23,975 nt of DNA from a virus: positions 1 through 23,975 of IMG/VR virus record IMGVR_UViG_3300027782_002638, one strand, 5' to 3'. Within the stretch, counting starts at the first letter, position 1. Every line of letters begins with the position of its first letter. A program made the translations under genes and the position numbers. The notes beneath the pieces were generated by a model, which saw nothing but the letters and a program-made list of their open reading frames with translations, did no database searches and was not told where the DNA came from. Below, one piece after another: positions 3,316-23,635 of the stretch.

Positions 3316-3323
3316 TATTTATG
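3316..3323 (-). promoter_or_regulatory. Candidate late promoter CATAAATA
   Basis: The minus strand reads CATAAATA, one mismatch from the T4 late box. It overlaps the stop codon of the RCC1-like gene 3319-4479 and lies 25 bases upstream of the DUF4376-like start, a suitable place to initiate transcription of that gene. Confidence 0.35.
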
Positions 3324-4479
3324 GTGGAGAATTATATAAGTATTGCGCCATAGAATGACCGTAGCCGGAACTAACACCAACCCATGTAGTCAATGTACCA
3401 ACTTGAACTGGAGACGATCTACTAGTAGTATTTCCACTGCCTAATTGTCCTACTGTTGCGGAACCCCAAGACCAAAGAGTGCCATCAGTTTTAATAGCTA
3501 AACAGTGCTGATCGCCAATAGAAGCTTTTGACCAAGTAGTCAATGCACCAACTTGTACTGGTGATGATCTATGAGTACTATCACCTAAACCAAGTTTACC
3601 AGAAGTATTATCTCCCCAACCCCAAAGAGTGCCGTCGGTTTTGATAGCTATATTAGTTGGATATCCGGTTGATATACTTGACCATGTAGTCAATGCACCA
3701 ATTTGAACTGGAGATGATCTACTAGTTGTATCACCTAGACCAAGTGCACCATAATTATTAGATCCCCATGACCAAAGAGTACCATCAGTTTTAATAGCTA
3801 AACAGTGAGTGTAACCACCAGCTATTTTAGACCATGTAGTCAATGCACCAACTTGTACTGGTGATGATCTATGAGTACGATCACCCAAACCAAGTTGACC
3901 ATAACCATTAGCTCCCCATGCCCAAAGAGTACCATCTGTTTTAATAGCAAAAGAAGAATATCCGCCAGCAGCTACTAATGACCATGTAGTTCCAGCCCCG
4001 ACTTGTACAGGTGATGATTTACTAACAATAGTTCCATCACCAAGTGCACCGCCGCCATCAAGATTGGCATCCCCATCATTTTTTCCCCAAGCCCAAAGAG
4101 TACCATCTGTTTTAACGGCTAAAGTGTGTTGACCAAAGCTAGAAGCTACTCTATTCCAAGCTGTCAATGCACCAACTTGTACTGGTGATGATCTATTAGT
4201 TATATCACCCAAACCAAGTTGACCAGAACCATTAATTCCCCAAGACCAAAGAGTGCCATCCATTTTAATAGCTACAGTAGCCTGGCTAAGTGAAGCAACA
4301 ACTCTAGCCCAAGCACTTGATCCAATTAGAACTGGTGATGATCTAGAAACAGCAGTTCCATTACCTAGTTGACCAGATGTACCTCGTCCAAATCCATATA
4401 AATTTCCTATATTAAGAAAAACATAACTAGCATAAGCAATATCTACATCTAGGCCATTAGTCTTAAAATTAGTAGCCAT
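3319..4479 (-). CDS. Second RCC1-like seven-bladed propeller tail/receptor-binding protein
   Basis: This 386-aa paralogue of the protein at 1399-2646 has the same start (MATNFKTNGLDVD) and seven RCC1-type blades: LYGFG near residue 28, then KMDGTLWSWG and five more KTDGTLW-type cores. Blade 3 carries an extra loop (KNDGDANLDGGGALG). Residues in the repeat cores are nearly invariant and differences concentrate in loops, as expected if the fold is conserved while surfaces diversify. No signal peptide or membrane segment is present. It begins 2 bases after the stop of the S74 fibre gene, so the fibre may carry or display it. A receptor-binding function is inference from fold and neighbours; enzymatic residues are not apparent. 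A GGAG site lies 11 bases before the ATG. Confidence 0.82.
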   Translation of the reverse strand: MATNFKTNGLDVDIAYASYVFLNIGNLYGFGRGTSGQLGNGTAVSRSSPVLIGSSAWARVVASLSQATVAIKMDGTLWSWGINGSGQLGLGDITNRSSPVQVGALTAWNRVASSFGQHTLAVKTDGTLWAWGKNDGDANLDGGGALGDGTIVSKSSPVQVGAGTTWSLVAAGGYSSFAIKTDGTLWAWGANGYGQLGLGDRTHRSSPVQVGALTTWSKIAGGYTHCLAIKTDGTLWSWGSNNYGALGLGDTTSRSSPVQIGALTTWSSISTGYPTNIAIKTDGTLWGWGDNTSGKLGLGDSTHRSSPVQVGALTTWSKASIGDQHCLAIKTDGTLWSWGSATVGQLGSGNTTSRSSPVQVGTLTTWVGVSSGYGHSMAQYLYNSPP

Positions 4480-9164: not shown

Positions 9165-12100
9165 TTACCAATCATTGCTATAATAATAGTAATTAGAATA
9201 ATCATCATTAACATCAGAAGTAGTATCAGAAGTAGTAGTATCTATAGTATAAGAAACGTCAGTAGATTCAACCGCTTCAACAAAAGGAAAAGTTTCCACT
9301 GGGGGAGGTTGTGGAATATCTGCAGTTACTGATATGGGTGGAATTACAGGATCAGTAGTACCTTGTTGATATATAATACTTGGGTCTTCACCGATATAAT
9401 CAATCGCAATACTATAGCCATATGTAGCTGTATCTACGACCTCATAATATCCTGTTTGGCTATTATATACTGTTGTTCCATTAACAAAATCACCTCGTAA
9501 TACTATTGCAGTATCAAGTTCGGATATCCATACCATATTTCCACTTTGAGGTCTTGGCCATGCGGGGGTTGGTAAAACACAAACTGTAGGTCCTACAACA
9601 GGGGGATCTACAGGAGGATCGCCAGGTCCTGGCGGGTCGGGATCCGGTGGCTCGTATATTATCACCGGTGGATCTGGAACTGGTGGCTGGGGAGGAAATA
9701 TTGGTGGTTTCGGAGGAATTCTAGTATCAACAAATACATCATATAGAGGAATTGTGAATGCTGTGCCAATCCAATTATAATATCCTTCAGTACAACTACG
9801 ATAACGTGTAGCAGTATTTTGAGTTAAATATGGAACTCCTGTATACGCTAATGTGACTACATCATTAGTCTTTGTATGAGAATGAAGAACAGTATTAGCG
9901 TTTTCATTGGTATTATATTGTAGATCAATTCTAAATTGATCAAAGCGTGGAATAATAGAAGATTCTGCTGGATCAAATGAAGTAAAGTATTCTTTATCTT
10001 TTAGATTGGATCCAAAAGTAGATTCAAAATTATCTACAAAAATACCATTCTTAAATCGATCTTGTCCAGTTGTGCTATTCTTAATTACTAAATTCTTAGT
10101 CTTTTGTTCAAGTAGAGATAGAGATGAATAATACTCTAGTCTAGATATTCTCTTATTAAGACCATTGATGTCTTTCATAGTATATCTACGAGTTTGATTT
10201 ACAGAAGTAGATACTGTTGGTTGTCCATTAGTTTGAGGCGTAACTTGAGAAGCTACTAAAGTAGGATACGGAGGAACAACAATAGAACCAATAGTCATTC
10301 CAGTTGATGGACTTGCTGGTGCCTGAGGTGTTTCTGCAGCATCGCCTTCAATAATATTAACTCCGCCAGCTGGACTTAAGTGTACTTTATCTATTCTGCC
10401 AACATAATAATCCATATCATAACCAAATGATTGATCTGGAGTAATATATCCGTTAGAAGTAAACGTATTACTTACTAGTGGATTGATGACTGCAGCATTT
10501 GAAGAAGCATTAGCTAAGTTTACAGTAGCAGCAAGAGTAATTGTATTGGATACATAAGCTCTAAAATCAATATAGTCTCTTAGACGGATAACTTGTCCAG
10601 TAGAAGTAGTATAAGTTGGAATGTTTTGCGTCTGAATGGCTGCAGTATTTGCAGTATTTGCATCATCAATAGGATATGAATTTATAGAGAAGAAACCTAC
10701 ACCAGTACTACTAGGAATTGTGAATACATCAAATACTACAGTTAACTTATCACCATTAAATACTGGAATACTACCAGCGCCAGGGTTTCTTATAAGTTGT
10801 GAAATTCCGTATGTAGTATCTGTTTGATTTGTTTTAAGTGCAAAACTAGATGTGATATCATTAGTAGAACTATTACTAAATGCATTACCAGCTGGAACTC
10901 TATAAACACTTCTTAACTTATATACATCTGGTAGACCAAGATACCATGGACCGTTTGGCCCAACTGAACTATTAGCAGACATTGTAATCTGATTAGTTGC
11001 TGAAGAGAAGTTTATAGCATTAGCAGTAAGATTTGCTGTTGCATTTGCAGTAAGAGTTATAGTCGTGGTATTTGTAGTTGAAACTGTACCTAAAAATAGT
11101 GAATTATTAGCAAGATATATTTGATATCCAGCAGAAATATATGTATTAACGGAAGAATAGCTTATAGCATTAGCAGTAAGATTTGCTGTTGCATTTGCAG
11201 TAAGAGTTATAGCTGTAGTATTTGTAGATGCAACTGTACCTAAAAATAGTGAATTTGAAGTAAGATAGATATCATATCCAGCAGAAATATATGTATTAAC
11301 TGTAGTATTAGTGGAAGTTATAATTGCATTTGCAGTATTACATGTAATAGTTCCGCCAAGTGAAACAGTAGTAGAAGTTATGATTGCACTAGCAGTACTA
11401 GATGTAATAGTTGCGCCAAGTGGAACAAAAGTAAAGCAATTGGACGTAGCATTTGCAACTAGAGTTATTGCAGTAGAATTAATTGATGCTGCTACTGTAC
11501 CAAGAAGAGCTGTATTAGCATTAGTACCAGAAAGATAAATTTTATAACCTGGTGATACATAGCTACTGAAAGAACTATTTGTAGTAGTAATGATATTTGT
11601 GGCAGTATTACATGTAACATTTGCTGTAAATGGTAAGAATAGTGCAGTATCAATACAAACTGTTCTATTTTGGTTAACAGTCTTTTGAATTGCTGCAGTA
11701 TTAGTTGATTTAACATCATAATAGATATTTACGTTTGCTGCGGCAGATTCTAAAGTTTCTACAGTATTAGCTGCGCTTCTTAGCGTAAATGACATAGATT
11801 TAGTATTTGCTAGACTGATTGTTGAATTACGATCTGCAAAATTAATTGGAATATTTTTTGGATATGCTTTAGCAAGAGTGCCAGATGCATAAGCATTAGT
11901 AACACTATTTGTGGTTATCAATAGTGTATTATTAACGATGCTTTTGATTTGCCTAATTTCATTGACAGTAGAGTTTGCAATTCTTATATAATCATTTTCT
12001 TGGAAAGAAGTCAAGAATATAGTATTTGTTCCAGTGATATTTGGAGTTGTACTATTTGCAACAATAGTTCCAGTAGCATTAGTTACAATAACATTTGAAC

Positions 12101-13811
12101 TTGGAATAACAATTACAGCTTGTTCTTGCAATGATGTTAATGTTCCAGTTCCGTAATAGAATTGCTGTGTTCCAGTAAGCGTTACAGCTGAAGATACACC
12201 ATTAGAATTTACATTTATAATATCATTTTTGCGGAATACAAATGAAGTTTTAACATTAGCTGATGGGGCTAATGTTTTTACATATGACTTTCCAGTGTAG
12301 AAAGTAGTCTTACTAAAGTTTGGATCAATAAGTACAGCTACATTACTATCTAATGTTGTGCTATATGTTAATATAGCATCAGCTACACCAGTATTTCCTG
12401 TAGCGGCAAATGCTCTTGTAGAAGAGAAAGATTTGCCGCTATTCATTTGAATATTTGTTAGATACAGATAATATTCTGCGGCTGGAGTGTCAACAGTTCC
12501 ATCAGAATACGAGAATGACAATACCGTAGCTGTACCTATTGCATTTCCAAGTGGAGATATTGAAGCATATGTTCTATTACTTAGAGCAGAAGTAACTGCA
12601 TCATATAAAGTAACAGTAGATCCAATTGTAAAGTATCCTGCTACTTCTTTGACTACTATATAATTTCCGTATGAAGCAGAAATATTCTGGCCAGTTAGAG
12701 ATATTGTATCGGTACCTTTACGAACTTCATACTTAGAAGAATTTTCTAAACTAACTCTATATCCATTTACATAAGCTAGTCCTGAACTGACTAAAGCATT
12801 AAATGTACTAGAATTGGCTGGATTAACATCTGAATTTATCTTGAATGGATTTACTACAAAGTCCCCGTTTGTTTCATATTCACGACGGGCCATTTCTTTG
12901 TTAATGACATTATACTGAGTAGTTTGTCTTAGTCTAACTATATTTCCATTATTCCAATCAGCAATAGATAAGAAGTTATTTGATGGAAGAGCGTTGCTAT
13001 TAGCTACAGTTAGAGTGGGTGTGAGCTTTAGTCGATTAGCACCAGGAGCATTAACATTTGTATATCCAGAAGCATTATCTAGAAGAGAAGAATCAGTAAA
13101 TTCAGTAACTACCGATTCTACAGTTGAGAATCCAACAGAAAGATTATTTGGTGCACTAGAATACTTTGAAATGATTGCAGTAATTGGTGATCCAACTTTA
13201 ATGAAGAATCCTTTTTGGAAAATAATTCCTTCACCAATTGTAAATGAATATCCAGTACCAATTGGATTGGTGTTTATAGAATTGATCTGAGAAGGTGCAA
13301 CCTTAACTGTGAGTGAAGTAGATAGTGTTGTGGTATTTGATGGATCTGTATTTGAATAGAATGTTAGTTGTTCATCAGCAGCAAAGACCTTTTGTCCACT
13401 AGTTCCACTATTTAGATACTTTACATAGATTGTATGTAGATCTGGATTCTGAGATTCTAGTCCATTCACACTATTGACTACAATGGCTTGTAGATTAGAA
13501 GTAGTAGCAGATACTGCACGTAATCCTACGTAATTTGAGGGGACTGTAGTTTGACCATCTACTCTAAGATCTGGAAGTTTTACATAGTCATATGAAGAAT
13601 CAGTGCTAATACTGCATCCTTGAATTACAGTGCCTTCTACAAAGATGTTATCGCCAAAGCGCTCAATCTGATTTTGTAGAATTGTTTGTAGTTGTGTAAG
13701 CTCACGGGCTTGTACGGCTACAGCTGGCCTAAATAAGATCCTATGAAAATTCTTTGCTTCGTCAAAATCGTCGTAATATGGATCGACGTTAAAATTAGTA
13801 TCTAATGGCAT
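9165..13811 (-). CDS. Giant DUF4815 baseplate/fibre structural protein
   Basis: This 1548-aa protein begins with the hallmark of DUF4815 phage proteins: FHRILFRPAVAVQARELTQL near residues 22-41, then QTILQNQIERFGDNIFVEGTV. This family occurs in baseplate regions of marine T4-like phages; its exact role is unresolved. The middle (about 727-936) is a tandem beta-rich repeat array shared with gp8 (annotated separately). A conserved block with GYDMDYYVGRIDKVHL lies at about 1125-1140, then a helical segment with GLNKRISRLEYYSSLSLLEQ. After it come a proline-rich hinge (about 1364-1405, PPKPPIFPPQPPVPDPP) and a Tyr/Asp/Ser-rich C-terminus (SNYYYYSNDW). It lies 10 bases after gp8 with an AGAGG ribosome site. 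It is probably an elongated peripheral baseplate or fibre component. Confidence 0.78.
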   Translation of the reverse strand: MPLDTNFNVDPYYDDFDEAKNFHRILFRPAVAVQARELTQLQTILQNQIERFGDNIFVEGTVIQGCSISTDSSYDYVKLPDLRVDGQTTVPSNYVGLRAVSATTSNLQAIVVNSVNGLESQNPDLHTIYVKYLNSGTSGQKVFAADEQLTFYSNTDPSNTTTLSTSLTVKVAPSQINSINTNPIGTGYSFTIGEGIIFQKGFFIKVGSPITAIISKYSSAPNNLSVGFSTVESVVTEFTDSSLLDNASGYTNVNAPGANRLKLTPTLTVANSNALPSNNFLSIADWNNGNIVRLRQTTQYNVINKEMARREYETNGDFVVNPFKINSDVNPANSSTFNALVSSGLAYVNGYRVSLENSSKYEVRKGTDTISLTGQNISASYGNYIVVKEVAGYFTIGSTVTLYDAVTSALSNRTYASISPLGNAIGTATVLSFSYSDGTVDTPAAEYYLYLTNIQMNSGKSFSSTRAFAATGNTGVADAILTYSTTLDSNVAVLIDPNFSKTTFYTGKSYVKTLAPSANVKTSFVFRKNDIINVNSNGVSSAVTLTGTQQFYYGTGTLTSLQEQAVIVIPSSNVIVTNATGTIVANSTTPNITGTNTIFLTSFQENDYIRIANSTVNEIRQIKSIVNNTLLITTNSVTNAYASGTLAKAYPKNIPINFADRNSTISLANTKSMSFTLRSAANTVETLESAAANVNIYYDVKSTNTAAIQKTVNQNRTVCIDTALFLPFTANVTCNTATNIITTTNSSFSSYVSPGYKIYLSGTNANTALLGTVAASINSTAITLVANATSNCFTFVPLGATITSSTASAIITSTTVSLGGTITCNTANAIITSTNTTVNTYISAGYDIYLTSNSLFLGTVASTNTTAITLTANATANLTANAISYSSVNTYISAGYQIYLANNSLFLGTVSTTNTTTITLTANATANLTANAINFSSATNQITMSANSSVGPNGPWYLGLPDVYKLRSVYRVPAGNAFSNSSTNDITSSFALKTNQTDTTYGISQLIRNPGAGSIPVFNGDKLTVVFDVFTIPSSTGVGFFSINSYPIDDANTANTAAIQTQNIPTYTTSTGQVIRLRDYIDFRAYVSNTITLAATVNLANASSNAAVINPLVSNTFTSNGYITPDQSFGYDMDYYVGRIDKVHLSPAGGVNIIEGDAAETPQAPASPSTGMTIGSIVVPPYPTLVASQVTPQTNGQPTVSTSVNQTRRYTMKDINGLNKRISRLEYYSSLSLLEQKTKNLVIKNSTTGQDRFKNGIFVDNFESTFGSNLKDKEYFTSFDPAESSIIPRFDQFRIDLQYNTNENANTVLHSHTKTNDVVTLAYTGVPYLTQNTATRYRSCTEGYYNWIGTAFTIPLYDVFVDTRIPPKPPIFPPQPPVPDPPVIIYEPPDPDPPGPGDPPVDPPVVGPTVCVLPTPAWPRPQSGNMVWISELDTAIVLRGDFVNGTTVYNSQTGYYEVVDTATYGYSIAIDYIGEDPSIIYQQGTTDPVIPPISVTADIPQPPPVETFPFVEAVESTDVSYTIDTTTSDTTSDVNDDYSNYYYYSNDW
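11003..11630 (-). repeat. Tandem beta-module repeats in the DUF4815 gene
   Basis: Three to four tandem units encode YISAGYQIYL, LFLGTV, STNTTAITLTANATANLTANAI modules. Bases 11012-11062 and 11162-11212 are identical over 51 nt at an offset of exactly 150. A more diverged unit (GYKIYLSG, LLGTVAASINSTAITLVANAT) lies at about 11420-11600. 47 nt of the first copy (11016-11062) recur exactly in gp8 at 14977-15023. Confidence 0.88.
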
Positions 13812-13821
13812 CTAGGTCCTC

Positions 13822-16602
13822 TTAGTAAAAATTCAAAACCAGTTTGATGGTTTCAGACTGGGTATTTGATCTACTGACTGCAGTTATATTCTCGGCATAA
13901 ACTATATCACCACTGTATTTAACAAGATCTGGTTGTCTTATGGCACTCACATCTACAATTTTACCACCAGATGCTGATTGAATTGTCTTACTTCCACCAG
14001 TTTCAAATTCACCCTTTACAGCAGTAAGATAGAAATTATATGTAGTATTCCCACCGCCTACTGGAGCATCAATAGCCTGAATATAACCGTATGCACCATT
14101 AGATCCAGGAGTATCTTGTTGACAATAATCATCTATAACAAAGGTATTAGATCCGACTTGATATGTTCCAGTAAGTTTTAGTGTCTGAACAAATGTTTCC
14201 GATGGTTGTGTAACAGAAGAAACATTTGCATATGCTCCAGATAATTGTCCAGCTACATTTGCACCGGTAATAAACACTCCACTTACATTTGTTAATTTTA
14301 ATACAGTACTATTTGAAGTTTGAACAGTTCCTACTGCAGAATATTGTGTATTAGATAATACTGCAGTAGTCACATACTTATTTATAGACACTACATCAGT
14401 ATTTGATAGCGTTTTATTCCATAGAGTTACCGCAGTAGAATTGGTAGAGTAACTTATAGTTGGAGTATTTGACGGCAATAAACCATGATTAAAGATCTTA
14501 TTTCCATTGAGATAAACATCAATTGCATTTGTAGCAGCTAATGCAAATAGAGAATTTGAACCGGAATCTAATCCAAATACAGTATTCGTAAATCCTGCAG
14601 AAACTGCATTGATACTATTATTAACAAGGGTGTTTCCAGATTTAAATATTGTAGTAGAAGTAGTAAATGATCCAGAATCTTTTCTGACTAGTGCTGTATT
14701 GCCAGTTATTTTTACAACAATTCCATTTGCTACAGGTGAATTTTGATAGATTATATCATTAGCAGCCAGAGATGTAGCAGCACTAAATCCAAGAGTTACA
14801 TAATTACCTACAGTATAAGAATAGTTTTGAACTATGCTGGTAAAAGTATTAAGTGAAGTATTCACACCAATTGCTTGTACAACTTGTTCACCAGATAAAA
14901 ATATACCAACATTTGAAGTAGCTGAAGAGTAGCTTATAGCATTAACAGTAAGATTTGCAGCTGAAGAGAAGCTTACAGCATTAGCAGTAAGATTTGCTGT
15001 TGCATTTGCAGTAAGAGTTATAGTTGTAGTATTTGTAGATGCAACGTTGCCTAACAAAAATGAATTTGAAGTAAGATATATTTGAGATCCAACAGAAATA
15101 TAGGTATTAACTGTAGTGTTAGTGGAAGTTATAATTGCACTAGCAGTATTAGATGTAATAGTTCCGCTAAGTGGAACAACGACAGCTGTTGCATTTGCAG
15201 TAAGAGTTGCATTTGCAGTAAGAGTTATAGCTGAAGTATTTGTAGATGCAACAGTGCCTAACAAAAATGAATTTGAAGTAAGATAGATTTGATATCCGGC
15301 AGAAATATATGTATTGACTGTAGTATTAGTGGAAGTTATAATTGCACTAGAACTATTAGATGTAATAGTTCCGCCAAATGGAACAAGGATATATGCATAA
15401 GTTATTTCTACATTTGCATATTTTGGATTCTGAAGCAATCCGATTCTAGAATAATCGTTTTGAGTGGAAATGCTATTTGCTTCACTATTAGCAAATGTAA
15501 CACTTATTCCAAGCTTATTTGCATTTAGTTCAGAAGATACATCATATCCATGGCCACCATGAGGAGCAATAACTGCTCTTGCAGATGCAGAATTTGCAAT
15601 AAGGGTGCCAGTATTTCCAACAATAGAAACATTTGCATATGTATAGTTTGATCCACCAGAAACCATATCGATGCGCTGAATAGCTTTTGATGTAGTATTG
15701 ACTACTGCAATACCTGCCGCTCCTGTTCCATCTCCCATAACATTTACATATGGAGCAATAGTAAATGCCGATGCTAAATCTGGCTGTGGATCAAATACAG
15801 ATTCTATTGCTACTTGATATTGATTGGCAGTAACTGTATATCCAGTTATCTTTCTAACTTGTCCTACTGCTGTTCCACTTGAAATATACAAAGCAGAACC
15901 TGTATAAAATCCATTATTTGAAGAACCATTATTAATTGCATGAATTAATGTATTACCACCAACGGCAATTTGTGCAAAGGATCCGTTTGCGTATGAAACA
16001 TAATTGTTCCCACCAGAGACAACAAATACTGCATCAATAGATCCGCTATTAGCAAATTGCGTAACATATGTATTTGCAACTACTGGAATATAATCAGTGG
16101 TGGTAAACTTATTATATGTAGCAGTATCAATAGTATACATGTACTTCCAACGATAGCCATCAGCAGTAGTATAGTTTTCTTCATCTGCATCTGTTTCGCT
16201 AAACAGCGGTTGACCAGTAGATGCAATTCCACTAGCATTATCTATACATTTGAATACGTGATATGCACCGCCTTCATATGATACTACAAAGAAAGCTTTT
16301 GTAAAGAGATCGCCGTCTTGATCATCATATCGAGCATAAATTGTTCCAGAAGTCCAGTCATATCGATCAACCATCATCTTTGTATCATCTGGAGTAACAA
16401 TTTTACCAAAGATTAATTCTTCAAATATAGTATATTCTGTTTCTGTAGTAGAATCTGAAATAGAAAGAGGAGTATTATTTGGCCATGGCGTATTACGCCC
16501 AGCAAAGATATAGAATTGATTATTAGACACATTTTGAATGGGCTGATAGTATTGTAAACTATTTCTTACATTAAAAAGTTTTGTATTTGCTACAACCGTC
16601 AT
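13822..16602 (-). CDS. 8: Baseplate wedge subunit gp8, enlarged by internal insertions
   Basis: This 926-aa protein matches the two ends of T4 gp8 (334 aa). The N-terminal part has FYIFAGRNTPWPNN (30-43), VDRYDWTSGTIYARYDD (78-94), YHVFKCID (114-121) and a DGYRWKYMYTI segment (148-158). The last 37 residues have DLVKYSGDIVYAENI and ETIKLVLNFY, matching the DLMRHSGEMIYMEN and EEINILFTF ends of T4 gp8. In T4, gp8 is a wedge component assembled with gp7, gp10, gp53, gp6 and gp25. Between the ends lie about 550 extra residues of N/S/T-rich beta sequence, including a repeat array at about 405-560. The start overlaps the previous stop (TAATG), indicating translational coupling. Confidence 0.85.
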   Translation of the reverse strand: MTVVANTKLFNVRNSLQYYQPIQNVSNNQFYIFAGRNTPWPNNTPLSISDSTTETEYTIFEELIFGKIVTPDDTKMMVDRYDWTSGTIYARYDDQDGDLFTKAFFVVSYEGGAYHVFKCIDNASGIASTGQPLFSETDADEENYTTADGYRWKYMYTIDTATYNKFTTTDYIPVVANTYVTQFANSGSIDAVFVVSGGNNYVSYANGSFAQIAVGGNTLIHAINNGSSNNGFYTGSALYISSGTAVGQVRKITGYTVTANQYQVAIESVFDPQPDLASAFTIAPYVNVMGDGTGAAGIAVVNTTSKAIQRIDMVSGGSNYTYANVSIVGNTGTLIANSASARAVIAPHGGHGYDVSSELNANKLGISVTFANSEANSISTQNDYSRIGLLQNPKYANVEITYAYILVPFGGTITSNSSSAIITSTNTTVNTYISAGYQIYLTSNSFLLGTVASTNTSAITLTANATLTANATAVVVPLSGTITSNTASAIITSTNTTVNTYISVGSQIYLTSNSFLLGNVASTNTTTITLTANATANLTANAVSFSSAANLTVNAISYSSATSNVGIFLSGEQVVQAIGVNTSLNTFTSIVQNYSYTVGNYVTLGFSAATSLAANDIIYQNSPVANGIVVKITGNTALVRKDSGSFTTSTTIFKSGNTLVNNSINAVSAGFTNTVFGLDSGSNSLFALAATNAIDVYLNGNKIFNHGLLPSNTPTISYSTNSTAVTLWNKTLSNTDVVSINKYVTTAVLSNTQYSAVGTVQTSNSTVLKLTNVSGVFITGANVAGQLSGAYANVSSVTQPSETFVQTLKLTGTYQVGSNTFVIDDYCQQDTPGSNGAYGYIQAIDAPVGGGNTTYNFYLTAVKGEFETGGSKTIQSASGGKIVDVSAIRQPDLVKYSGDIVYAENITAVSRSNTQSETIKLVLNFY
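14925..15385 (-). repeat. Tandem beta-module repeats in gene 8
   Basis: Two full units and one partial unit encode ITSTNTTVNTYISAGYQIYL, SFLLGTVASTNT and ITLTANATANLTANA modules. Bases 14977-15023 are identical to 11016-11062 in the DUF4815 gene. Flanking parts of the unit match with few changes, showing that the two genes exchanged or share this cassette. Confidence 0.88.
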
Positions 16603-21097: not shown

Positions 21098-21514
21098 TTA
21101 TCTGACTCTGTCTAGTGCTATGGTGGCGCTTAACAGAACTGGTTGTAATCTATTTATTGTTGTAAATGTAATAGTAACATCTACTTCATTGTTATCGTTT
21201 CCTGCAGAAACTTTGATATCAATGATATTTGCTCTTGGTTCATATGTGTTTATAGCATTAGTAATATCACTTTGAATGGCTCTTAGAGTAAGAGGAGTAA
21301 TATTATCAAATAGATACTTTCTGATATTTGCGCCAAATCTTGGTCTAAAACGTCTCTCATAATAATTAGTCAGTAAGATATTCTTTATGGATCTCTTAAC
21401 TGCATCTTCATTTACAAGACGAGTAAGATCTTTCTTAATTGGATGTATTGTAAAGTTTGTTTGGAAATCTGAATAAAACTCTTCAGTATTTGTTTGAGGT
21501 GTAATGGCAGCCAC
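21098..21514 (-). CDS. 25: Baseplate wedge subunit gp25 (lysozyme-like fold), GTG start
   Basis: This 138-aa protein (T4 gp25 is 132 aa) belongs to the GPW_gp25 family, which also includes TssE of type VI secretion. Signature elements are YYERRFRPRFGANIRKYLFD (51-70) and the YEPR motif (91-94) that contacts the wedge core and sheath initiator. The reading frame opens with GTG, not ATG. An AAGGAG ribosome site at 21521-21526 with 6-base spacing fixes this start. It is the first gene of the minus-strand late operon, 23 bases downstream of a perfect TATAAATA box. In contractile systems gp25 with gp6 and gp53 forms the wedge core needed to begin sheath assembly. Confidence 0.93.
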   Translation of the reverse strand: MAAITPQTNTEEFYSDFQTNFTIHPIKKDLTRLVNEDAVKRSIKNILLTNYYERRFRPRFGANIRKYLFDNITPLTLRAIQSDITNAINTYEPRANIIDIKVSAGNDNNEVDVTITFTTINRLQPVLLSATIALDRVR

Positions 21515-21537: not shown

Positions 21538-21545
21538 TATTTATA
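21538..21545 (-). promoter_or_regulatory. T4-type late promoter for the baseplate operon
   Basis: The minus strand reads TATAAATA exactly, 23 bases upstream of the gp25 GTG and with its ribosome site between. Spacing is what is expected for a late promoter with a very short leader. It would be read by the phage late sigma (gp55), gp33 and the clamp gp45 in T4-type regulation. Confidence 0.7.
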
Positions 21546-21565
21546 AGAATTTTTGAGAACAGGTA

Positions 21566-21593
21566 TTTACATTAATCTAATATAGTGTACTAT
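21566..21593 (+). promoter_or_regulatory. Possible host sigma70-type promoter overlapping the late box
   Basis: TTTACA (21566-21571) is followed after 16 bases by TACTAT (21588-21593), a weak match to -35/-10 elements. It could let host polymerase transcribe the tmRNA before late factors appear. The -10 match is only 4 of 6. Confidence 0.25.
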
Positions 21594-21598
21594 AAATA
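21591..21598 (+). promoter_or_regulatory. T4-type late promoter for the tmRNA
   Basis: The plus strand reads CTATAAATA ending at 21598, a perfect late box. With usual spacing the transcript would start near 21604, a few bases before the acceptor piece of the tmRNA. It is oriented away from the box at 21538-21545. Confidence 0.7.
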
Positions 21599-21660
21599 TA
21601 TTGTTCGGTGATACGGACTTGAAGTTGTGAAGACCCGGGTGCGATTCCCGGCGCCTCCAC

Positions 21661-21703
21661 CATGAATACTTGAGTATATCAGATGCAAGTTCAAGTATTC
21701 ATG
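21661..21703 (+). other. Intervening hairpin of the permuted tmRNA
   Basis: CATGAATACTTGA (21661-21673) and TCAAGTATTCATG (21691-21703) form a perfect 13-bp stem with a 17-base loop. It begins inside the CCA of the acceptor piece and ends two bases before the first G of the coding piece, so it stacks near the acceptor stem in the precursor. It would be removed on maturation (RNase P at 21706 and 3' trimming), leaving two RNA pieces. Confidence 0.85.
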
Positions 21704-21789
21704 ATGGGGGCGATCAGTATCGATTCACATTGGATGGGAAGAGGAGAACACGGTAAGAAACGACCGCCAATCAGTTCAAACTTATAAAT

Positions 21790-21831
21790 GCTAACGACAA
21801 CGAAAGCATGGATACCCGCCTAGCGGCGTAA
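21790..21831 (+). other. tmRNA tag reading frame: ANDNESMDTRLAA
   Basis: Translation would resume at GCT (21790-21792) and run AAC GAC AAC GAA AGC ATG GAT ACC CGC CTA GCG GCG to TAA. With the charged alanine the tag begins AANDN. The LAA end is the usual ClpXP/ClpAP degron, and ANDN starts are common in alphaproteobacterial tags such as that of Caulobacter. Confidence 0.92.
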
Positions 21832-21894
21832 GTATTCCGGGGTATGGGTTCCACCTAGCAACAGAACGGGCCCACTAACATGAATGGAGTTAAT

Positions 21895-22227
21895 ATGAAA
21901 AAGACTAATCTGAATGACTTTGATGCGCCAGTAGTCATAAACAACGGAATGTTTCAAATTCAGTCCGATGATTATCTAAATCAGCTTATTATAAATAAAA
22001 TTGTCGTTCTGCCCCTGAGACATATTCAGGGTAACATTGAAAGTAAGACCTCAAAGGATTCGGTAATCATAATCCTAAGCGGTTCAGGATCAATGGAGGT
22101 AAATGGATCAAGTGTGCAGATTACTGCTGGTGATGTCATTGAAGTAAGGGCAGACGAAACCTTTACAGTTACAAATGATACACTTGAATCATCTATACAA
22201 TTTATTTCGGTATTAACTAAGAAGTGA
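21895..22227 (+). CDS. Small cupin-like protein of unknown function
   Basis: This protein has 110 aa from the ATG at 21895, chosen because a GGAG site (21886-21889) lies 5 bases upstream. The ATG at 21880 is in frame but lacks a ribosome site and would overlap the tmRNA end. The core resembles a single cupin barrel: SVIIILSGSGSMEVNGSSVQ followed by ITAGDVIEVRADETFTVTN, with the glycine turns and the GD-(V/I) strand typical of the fold. The histidines and glutamate that usually bind metal are absent from the expected places, so it is probably a ligand-binding or structural cupin rather than a metal enzyme. It is the first protein gene downstream of the tmRNA and could share its transcript. Function unknown. 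Confidence 0.72.
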   Translation: MKKTNLNDFDAPVVINNGMFQIQSDDYLNQLIINKIVVLPLRHIQGNIESKTSKDSVIIILSGSGSMEVNGSSVQITAGDVIEVRADETFTVTNDTLESSIQFISVLTKK

Positions 22228-22258: not shown

Positions 22259-22825
22259 ATGGGTTTCAAAATAAACTATTATCCACAAGTAATTGCGCTT
22301 GTGGCAGTACTAACTATATCAATAAATGCTAATGCTAATATACCACAACATGATGTAATTGGTGATATTATTGAACAAAACAACTATGCCGCACCTATAC
22401 CAACATTAGAAATTCAGGAACCGCCACTAGAAATCAAACCGGTAGACCAAAAAGAATTGTACTGTTTGGCAGAAGCCGTATATTTTGAAAGTAAAAACGA
22501 ATCTCTTAAAGGCCAGAAAGCTGTTGCACACGTAATAGTTAATAGGTCAAAGAGTCATAAATTTCCAAGCACAATTTGTAGAGTTATTAATCAAAAGAAT
22601 CATTCTACGTGTCAATTTTCTTATAAGTGTGAAGGAAAATCTCTTGTACCAAAGAATAAAGAAGATTATGAGTTAGCTATGGATGTAGCTCAAGACACTT
22701 TAGATGGTGAAGAGGATATTACAAAAGGTGCTTTGTATTTTCATAATAATACTGTAAAGCCCGTTTGGGCTAAAGCATCTAGACTAACTATGATTATTGG
22801 TAATCATAAATTTTATAGAGGATGA
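22259..22825 (+). CDS. Secreted SleB-type cell wall hydrolase (probable endolysin)
   Basis: This 188-aa protein belongs to the Hydrolase_2/SleB family (lytic transglycosylase or amidase-like peptidoglycan hydrolases). Residues 1-26 look like a Sec signal peptide with a hydrophobic core VIALVAVLTI and an ANA cleavage site before N27. A proline-rich linker (45-62) leads to the catalytic domain: AEAVYFESKNESLKGQKAVAHVIVNR (71-96), where Glu77 aligns with the family's catalytic glutamate, then FPSTICRVI, CQFSYKC, and GALYFHN plus a C-terminal IGNHKFYRG, all typical. The four cysteines (69, 107, 118, 124) may form disulphides in the periplasm. Start fixed by AAGGAG 7 bases upstream. A signal peptide means export does not need a classical holin. 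It is probably the lysis enzyme, between the tmRNA region and gp33. Confidence 0.87.
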   Translation: MGFKINYYPQVIALVAVLTISINANANIPQHDVIGDIIEQNNYAAPIPTLEIQEPPLEIKPVDQKELYCLAEAVYFESKNESLKGQKAVAHVIVNRSKSHKFPSTICRVINQKNHSTCQFSYKCEGKSLVPKNKEDYELAMDVAQDTLDGEEDITKGALYFHNNTVKPVWAKASRLTMIIGNHKFYRG

Positions 22826-22829
22826 TAAT

Positions 22830-23057
22830 ATGGTGATGAATAGTAAAGCTAAGGAATTCTATGAAGTTATAGAAAACTTAGTTTGGAAACATGATATTGA
22901 TTATATGGATGCAATTATTATGCATTGTGAAAAGAATAATATTGAAGTAGAAAGTGTTGCATCCTTGATTAAAAGTAATGAAAATATCAAGAGTAAGATT
23001 CAAATTGAAGCAGAGAAACTGAATTATTTGCCAAAGACTGCCCGATTGGATATCTAA
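22830..23057 (+). CDS. 33: Late transcription co-activator gp33
   Basis: This protein has 75 aa from the ATG at 22830, which has an AGAGG site 8 bases upstream; an earlier in-frame ATG at 22797 lies inside the hydrolase gene and lacks one. The sequence YMDAIIMHCEKNNIEVESVASLI followed by SKIQIEAEKLNYLPKTARL is the pattern of gp33 in marine T4-like phages and aligns with the C-terminal half of T4 gp33 (SYLEATTAFLEENSI, IEKIQSEAIDENLL). T4 gp33 binds the RNA polymerase beta flap and, with sigma gp55, joins polymerase to the sliding clamp gp45 at TATAAATA promoters. The gene starts 4 bases after the hydrolase stop and its stop overlaps the gp59 start (TAATG), the same 33-59 pairing as in T4. Confidence 0.83.
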   Translation: MVMNSKAKEFYEVIENLVWKHDIDYMDAIIMHCEKNNIEVESVASLIKSNENIKSKIQIEAEKLNYLPKTARLDI

Positions 23058-23635
23058 TGGATGCATATGCCGCATACGTGATGTATCTGGCTTTGAAACG
23101 ACACTTTACTCTTGGTAGTAATTATGACTACTTTAAGTATAATGGTAAGACGAATGCTTCAAAGCAATCGTTTGAGACTAGACGAGATAGGTACTCTTTT
23201 CATAAGCTGTCTAAGAAGGATCATCCTAGAGACTTTGTAGTAGCTAACTTTATAGAATATGGTCCAAATATTTGGATTGGTGATTTGGTTTCTGACTCTA
23301 AGTATGAAGATACTTACAGATCTTGGTTAAAGAGAAGAGAATCTATCTCGTATGTCTTCAAGAATGATCTAGAACAACTAGAGAATATAGATGCAGACCT
23401 TAAGTCAATTAATGGAGATTATCCAAGACTGCTTCAGCTCTATATGAGAAATAAAGTATGTATAGAGACTATTATTATTCTATCTAATTTGGTTGGGTTT
23501 ATTAAAAGATGGAATAAAGAAATCTTGGATCCAGTCATTTGGCCAGAGATATATAATACATGTATAAAGTATGCGCCATTTATGGAATATGATGCAGAAA
23601 AACTTAAAAAAATAACACTAGAAACAATATGTTGA
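23057..23635 (+). CDS. 59: Loader of DNA helicase, gp59
   Basis: This 192-aa protein (T4 gp59 is 217 aa) matches at several points: YVMYLALKRHF, NYDYFKYNGKTNASKQSFETRRDRYSFHKLSKK (about 22-54), FIEYGPNIWIGDL and a C-terminal helical region. These correspond to YKLYLMIKQHM, YDVIKYNW, YQKRRDKYFFQKLS and AWIGDI in T4 gp59. By family knowledge gp59 binds fork DNA and single-strand binding protein gp32 and places the gp41 helicase on recombination intermediates and forks. It is mostly alpha-helical, with basic patches around 24-54. It overlaps gp33 by one base, so both are co-translated. In T4 the next gene is 32; here a methyltransferase gene follows. Confidence 0.85.
   Translation: MDAYAAYVMYLALKRHFTLGSNYDYFKYNGKTNASKQSFETRRDRYSFHKLSKKDHPRDFVVANFIEYGPNIWIGDLVSDSKYEDTYRSWLKRRESISYVFKNDLEQLENIDADLKSINGDYPRLLQLYMRNKVCIETIIILSNLVGFIKRWNKEILDPVIWPEIYNTCIKYAPFMEYDAEKLKKITLETIC

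Follow-up and report, generated by a model that had tools for sequence, protein, structure and literature searches.

A permuted two-piece tmRNA gene of alphaproteobacterial type, preceded by a T4-type late promoter element, in a T4-like phage

tmRNA frees stuck ribosomes and marks the unfinished protein for destruction. Viral two-piece forms of this RNA are already known. The Methylophilales phage Melnitz (2022) has one, located upstream of gp33. Its report gives permuted tmRNA in 17 of 47 contigs related to Melnitz, counts 53 two-piece tmRNAs among phage genomes, places the Melnitz tmRNA gene behind an early promoter and proposes recycling of tagged host proteins (PMC9004378). A Rfam model, RF04321, has been given together with 79 bacteriophage tmRNA sequences (PMC11915505). 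Our own two viral scans, one for T-loops ending in ATT and one for the host-type loop GGCRGTA, each returned at least 120 stretches, so such viral tmRNA genes are common. An earlier note on the DNA analysed here had described permuted tmRNAs in T4-like phages as little described, a view that these counts contradict. The gene reported below adds another case. It lies in what we call the window, that is, the whole stretch of DNA analysed, a 23,975-base virus record from IMG/VR that represents a fragment of a phage genome.

Anatomy of the tmRNA gene

We located a permuted two-piece tmRNA gene of the alphaproteobacterial type at window positions 21602-21876 on the plus strand. Two Rfam models matched over their full lengths: RF04321 (tmRNA_permuted) at 21602-21831 (model positions 1-213, 113.6 bits, E 7.9e-22, gathering score 47) and RF01849 (alpha_tmRNA) at 21564-21876 (model positions 1-355, 101.1 bits, E 7.4e-27, gathering score 50). 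At the level of sequence, the locus is thus confirmed as a permuted tmRNA gene. The alpha_tmRNA check that the earlier note had proposed therefore came out above the cut-off, and together with the T4-type neighbours the two matches bear out its central claim, a permuted two-piece tmRNA in a T4-like phage. The ARAGORN check proposed alongside it succeeded only in part. At the default threshold no tmRNA was reported in the window, while the relaxed setting -ps80 returned one permuted tmRNA with exactly the tag ANDNESMDTRLAA, a clean tag of 13 codons as in the earlier note. Extra overlapping calls at -ps50 were judged spurious. Since the default threshold misses the window gene, a survey relying on ARAGORN alone would overlook such a gene, and phage tmRNA counts in print may be too low. 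The parts of the gene are the following:

21603-21618, plus strand: hairpin GTTCG/CGGAC at the 5' end of the acceptor piece; it has its counterpart in the 5' hairpin of the alpha_tmRNA model and does not vary among the five aligned sequences
21604-21662, plus strand: acceptor (tRNA-like 3') piece with encoded CCA, from the Rfam models; 5' end predicted from the late promoter
21626-21631, plus strand: P2 5' strand TGTGAA, partner TTCACA at 21724-21729
21635-21651, plus strand: T arm CCGGG-TGCGATT-CCCGG, with two compensatory pairs, CG>GC and CG>AU
21652-21662, plus strand: acceptor 3' strand CGCCTCC plus ACCA; seven of seven pairs with 21706-21712, invariant in the five aligned sequences
21663-21705, plus strand: intervening segment, presumably removed on processing; a hairpin of 11-13 pairs extending the acceptor stem
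21706-21876, plus strand: coding (mRNA-like) piece starting GGGGGCG, from the Rfam models and ARAGORN
21724-21729, plus strand: P2 3' strand TTCACA, from the pairing count in the alignment
21751-21766, plus strand: pseudoknot 1 stem CGGT/ACCG, aligned to a conserved block of the Rfam models and invariant in the five aligned sequences
21790-21831, plus strand: tag reading frame ANDNESMDTRLAA and stop TAA, from ARAGORN -ps80; resume codon GCT at 21790
21810-21838, plus strand: helix P5 around the stop codon, GGATAC / GTATTCC, from the pairing count in the alignment

The pieces follow the permuted order, with the acceptor piece (T arm and CCA) first, an intervening segment of 43 bases next and the coding piece last. 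As the earlier note had described, the acceptor half, which terminates in CGCCTCCACCA at 21662, precedes a coding half that opens with GGGGGCG at 21706. Its extent of 21604-21880 was right in placing the gene and overran at the 3' end, which lies nearer 21876. In the acceptor piece, the 5' hairpin begins at about the position where a late transcript would be expected to start. Up to the AACAGA motif the coding piece measured 160 bases, against a host median of 195. The tag, A-N-D-N-E-S-M-D-T-R-L-A-A, comprises 13 codons with a degradation-signal end; the tags of relatives (ANDNESMDYALAA and ANDNSAFETRLAA) keep the frame, the length and the final LAA and vary in the middle. A phage search with the doubled tag peptide gave no match.

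Pairing was counted on a structure of our own naming in an alignment of the window gene with four relatives. In this alignment of only five sequences, 91.9% of cells paired, against 34-51% with the partners slid, a comparison that favours our structure over its slid versions because it was drawn from the window's own sequence. Both partners had changed in six pairs, which were distributed among the T stem, P2, P5 and the spacer hairpin. The acceptor stem, T stem, P2 and stop-codon helix all form, which upholds the earlier reading of three of these helices (acceptor stem, P2 and stop-codon helix). P2 and P5 each contained one double-changed pair, with 93% and 85% of cells paired, respectively, in these few sequences (n=5). 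The acceptor stem, as read from the sequence, contains G3-U70, the alanine identity pair. The spacer hairpin was retained in relatives despite differing sequence, with two pairs changed on both sides; as a phage-specific trait it was rejected, since the spacers of host genes fold too. The cofolding energy of the two pieces was no better than that of mononucleotide shuffles (z +0.4) and, being indistinguishable from them, was not used as evidence for the gene.

Gene neighbourhood and origin

The tmRNA gene is surrounded by T4-type core genes (gp6, gp25, gp33 and gp59), and the local gene order is gp25 (divergent), tmRNA, cupin, SleB-like hydrolase, gp33, gp59 and a methyltransferase:

21098-21514, minus strand: gp25 baseplate wedge protein, divergent neighbour (GPW_gp25 E 2.4e-15; phrog_261 E 1.4e-40)
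21880-22227, plus strand: cupin-domain protein (Cupin_2 E 7.8e-6, slightly under the curated cut-off)
22259-22825, plus strand: SleB-like cell wall hydrolase, an endolysin candidate (Hydrolase_2 E 2.1e-27; phrog_938 endolysin)
22797-23057, plus strand: gp33 late-transcription coactivator (Trans_coact E 3.3e-18; phrog_254)
23057-23635, plus strand: gp59 helicase loader (T4_Gp59_N E 1.5e-9; phrog_269 E 8.3e-50)

No more than about 12 bases separate the cupin ribosome-binding site from the tmRNA 3' end, with translation probably starting near 21895, and no terminator-like site was found between the tmRNA and the genes after it. Elsewhere in the window, the tail/baseplate region encodes two proteins with RCC1-like repeats (GTLWSWGxNxxGQLGLGD...; 1399-2646 and 3319-4479), and two very long baseplate/structural proteins (9165-13811 and 13822-16602) carry near-identical Thr/Ser/Asn repeats common to both genes.

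When viral loci were picked by their tmRNA alone, 50 of the 87 distinct loci with enough DNA had a same-strand gp33 no further than 2.5 kb downstream and none had it on the opposite strand, among the matches listed; within 2.5 kb upstream of the tmRNA it was found in 1 of 99 loci, again among the matches listed. Loci picked by gp33 had an alpha-type permuted tmRNA upstream of that gene in L155-L161, and in L177 and L178 only the general permuted model scored above its cut-off. The slot upstream of gp33 and gp59 holds both alpha-type and beta-type RNAs, which suggests that it is a long-standing slot in T4-like phages.

The earlier note had supposed that the phage took the gene from its host lineage. 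The sequence does not establish this, given the alpha_tmRNA score (101 bits, compared with 143-313 for the chromosomal alphaproteobacterial genes scored), the T-loop TGCGATT (21640-21646), which differs from the usual host type, and the conserved phage gene neighbourhood. The host-type loop GGCRGTA occurred in 56 of 58 matched alphaproteobacterial genes, the other two having been chosen for their TGCGATT loop. A donor search of genome contigs with the exact acceptor-end pattern gave no match, and with a relaxed pattern it returned two distant Alphaproteobacteria with genes of 212-213 bits. We dropped the loop TGCRATT as a mark of an old phage lineage: close phage relatives mix TGCRATT and GGCRGTA (L161 and several clusters), so TGCGATT is no proof of such descent. 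T-loop positions 54, 58 and 60 were seen to covary, as G..G..A (GGCRGTA) or T..A..T (TGCRATT), sometimes within one close cluster.

The late promoter element and the time of expression

Three promoter-like elements lie between gp25 and the tmRNA gene:

21538-21545, minus strand: second late promoter TATAAATA, in the opposite direction before gp25; exact match, gp25 start codon at 21514
21566-21593, plus strand: weak sigma-70-like promoter TTTACA-N16-TACTAT, 9 of 12 matches, overlapping the late promoter
21591-21598, plus strand: T4-type late promoter element TATAAATA, exact match directly before the tmRNA

The plus-strand TATAAATA stands 13 bases ahead of the expected transcript start at about 21604. 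Its frequency in the window was not above chance (5 found, 5.5 expected). An argument from the window alone was therefore rejected, and the case rests on the fixed place of the element in relatives. Of 104 distinct upstream regions in the first viral sample, 32 had TATAAATA at a distance of 44-50 bases from the T stem, and it occurred once elsewhere in 200 bases; in the second sample it lay 37-55 bases before the T stem in about half; and in the pooled samples the distance was 36-56 bases in 74 of 195 distinct viral genes, all among the matches listed. We also built clusters of viral permuted tmRNAs on the mature tmRNA, excluding the promoter region. Here the majority of members had TATAAATA at the fixed place in 39 of 89 clusters, against a single cluster with the element elsewhere in the 110 bases upstream (matches listed). 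None of about 60 chromosomal alphaproteobacterial tmRNA genes had it at that place; elsewhere upstream among these host genes, one copy was 95 bases away and two others were at 73 and 180. This result suggests that the window tmRNA gene and many of its relatives would be made when virus particles are built. In the first sample the late promoter was associated with the presence of an endolysin between tmRNA and gp33 (p 1.5e-4), a link that was dropped after pooling (12 of 29 versus 13 of 48, matches listed).

Our main reading, to which we assign a probability of roughly 0.8, is that the window encodes a working, phage-borne two-piece tmRNA of alphaproteobacterial type that is expressed in the late phase. 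From the sequence we infer the following course of transcription, processing, charging, function and benefit. A single precursor would start at TATAAATA, near 21604, through RNA polymerase with the phage factors gp55 and gp33, possibly with weaker early transcription from the overlapping sigma-70-like site, and would read on into the genes for the cupin protein, the endolysin, gp33 and gp59. The intervening hairpin would be removed by enzymes of the host, RNase P cutting before G21706 and tRNase Z or exonucleases acting at the CCA at 21662, and the acceptor stem and P2 would hold the two pieces together. Host AlaRS would charge the RNA with alanine via G3-U70; with host SmpB (presumed) and EF-Tu it would then enter stalled ribosomes and release them, and the added tag ending in ANDNESMDTRLAA would direct the fragment to the host's proteases. 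Judging from the promoter position, the likely benefit is that ribosomes are kept free as truncated mRNAs accumulate late in infection. Against this reading speak the alpha_tmRNA score, lower than that of the chromosomal genes scored, and the shorter coding piece, so that some activity may be lost, and also the lack of a strong -35 box at 17 bases in the window clade. The link to the late phase in the function that the earlier note proposed is supported by the late promoter, while its other proposal, the redirecting of tagged proteins, is unlikely because the tag, with its final LAA, resembles an ordinary degradation signal.

If the gene were instead mainly early, driven by a host-type sigma-70 promoter and tagging host proteins for recycling, then TATAAATA would be a mere AT-rich -10 box. 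The placement of the Melnitz gene behind an early promoter (PMC9004378) speaks for this, as do the promoters themselves: among the matches listed, a TTGACA-like box (5 or 6 of 6 bases) stood 16-18 bases upstream of TATAAATA in 44 of 74 viral genes, a perfect TTGACA stood exactly 17 bases before it in 34 of the 74, and the window carries TTTACA-N16-TACTAT. Against it, where sites had the form TTGACN-N16-18-TATAA, the sequence went on as TATAAATA in 43 of 46 tmRNA promoters but in just 5 of the 178 sites located elsewhere in the same viral DNA (matches listed; Fisher p 9e-37, too small a value because the sequences are related, although the contrast is large). Melnitz itself has TTGACA-N17-TATAAATA at this place, with TATAAATA 13 bases before its tmRNA match. 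The window clade has no good -35 box at 17 bases, its TTTACA sitting further upstream, and sigma-70-like matches in the region of the window gene were not above chance. We regard a mainly early gene as unlikely. A decoy or inhibitor of host tmRNA or SmpB, rather than a rescuer, has a precedent in the CDS-less tmRNA-like RNA of mycobacteriophage DS6A, which in E. coli acts as an inhibitor of the endogenous tmRNA (cited in PMC11915505). Such an RNA would need no tag frame, and relatives preserve that frame with its stop and LAA end, as well as the alanine pair and the pseudoknot region, which makes this role very improbable here. The low alpha_tmRNA score relative to chromosomal genes would also fit a decaying host-gene fragment picked up by chance. 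Decay, the least credible of these alternatives, is already largely refuted by the full-length match, the compensatory changes, the undamaged tag and a position shared with diverged relatives.

Beyond the window gene itself, we think it rather probable, with less assurance than for the window gene, that phage permuted tmRNAs as a class have gained a promoter type of their own. In this type a host sigma-70 promoter would be fused with a perfect T4 late promoter (TTGACA-N17-TATAAATA), or the late element would dominate, as in the window clade. tmRNA would then be supplied throughout infection and especially late, when host ssrA transcription would be shut off. If this is true, the 'early only' view of the Melnitz gene would be revised. 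The fixed late promoter yields a testable prediction of timing, namely that the phage replaces host tmRNA while its structural proteins are made. No report of a conserved late or fused promoter of phage tmRNA turned up in the part of the literature that was searched. What is new relative to the Melnitz paper is the perfect late promoter directly before permuted tmRNA genes.

Comparison with known systems

Melnitz and the pelagimyophages Mosig and HTVC008M resemble the window in having a permuted alpha-type tmRNA in a T4-like phage, on the same strand as gp33 and upstream of it. Melnitz further shares TATAAATA directly before the tmRNA, whereas Mosig and HTVC008M lack it at the promoter place. 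In all three the tag and T-loop differ from those of the window, and the window differs from all three in its cupin and SleB-like endolysin between tmRNA and gp33. Melnitz has a glutamine riboswitch after its tmRNA gene, which the window lacks. For gp33 and gp6, identity between the window and Mosig or HTVC008M amounts to only 34-46%. In HTVC008M, a cultured pelagiphage, the permuted tmRNA upstream of gp33 is unannotated (KC465899 ~145103-145414; L190 3112-3423; 90.6 bits with RF04321). Pelagibacter phage Mosig has a manA RNA motif downstream (L188 6607-6814). Permuted tmRNAs without an annotated feature also occur in Caulobacter phage CcrBL10, Roseobacter phage DSS3P8, Ruegeria phage RpAliso and the jumbo Sinorhizobium phage Phosso (L396, L398, L399 and L400), and in DSS3P8 a GOLLD RNA (L398 860-1293; 150.7 bits, just at the cut-off) directly precedes the permuted tmRNA. 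SmpB was found in none of the complete genomes of Mosig, HTVC008M, Melnitz, CcrBL10, DSS3P8, RpAliso and Phosso, all of which have a permuted tmRNA, nor in Caulobacter phage Cr30. Among isolates, Cr30 has the closest gp6 (44% identical to that of the window) and is also the nearest one whose baseplate and gp33 are related to those of the window; it has no permuted tmRNA, and the RNA is thus dispensable for some relatives.

Beta-type permuted tmRNA (RF01850) lies upstream of gp33, as in the window, in the T4-like contigs L162, L163, L165, L166, L168, L172 and L174, and in L168 and L174, the two whose genes were read, a SleB-like hydrolase precedes gp33 and gp59 follows it, again as in the window. 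Unlike the window, these contigs have the betaproteobacterial RNA type and no TATAAATA at the promoter position. Their tmRNA arose either by in-place exchange of the tmRNA type or by independent capture. Chromosomal alphaproteobacterial ssrA genes (RF01849) have the T-loop GGCRGTA and no promoter TATAAATA, whereas the window gene has TGCGATT, a shorter coding piece and a lower score; the two are alike in piece order, 5' hairpin, T arm, P2, pseudoknot 1, tag and 3' end motif.
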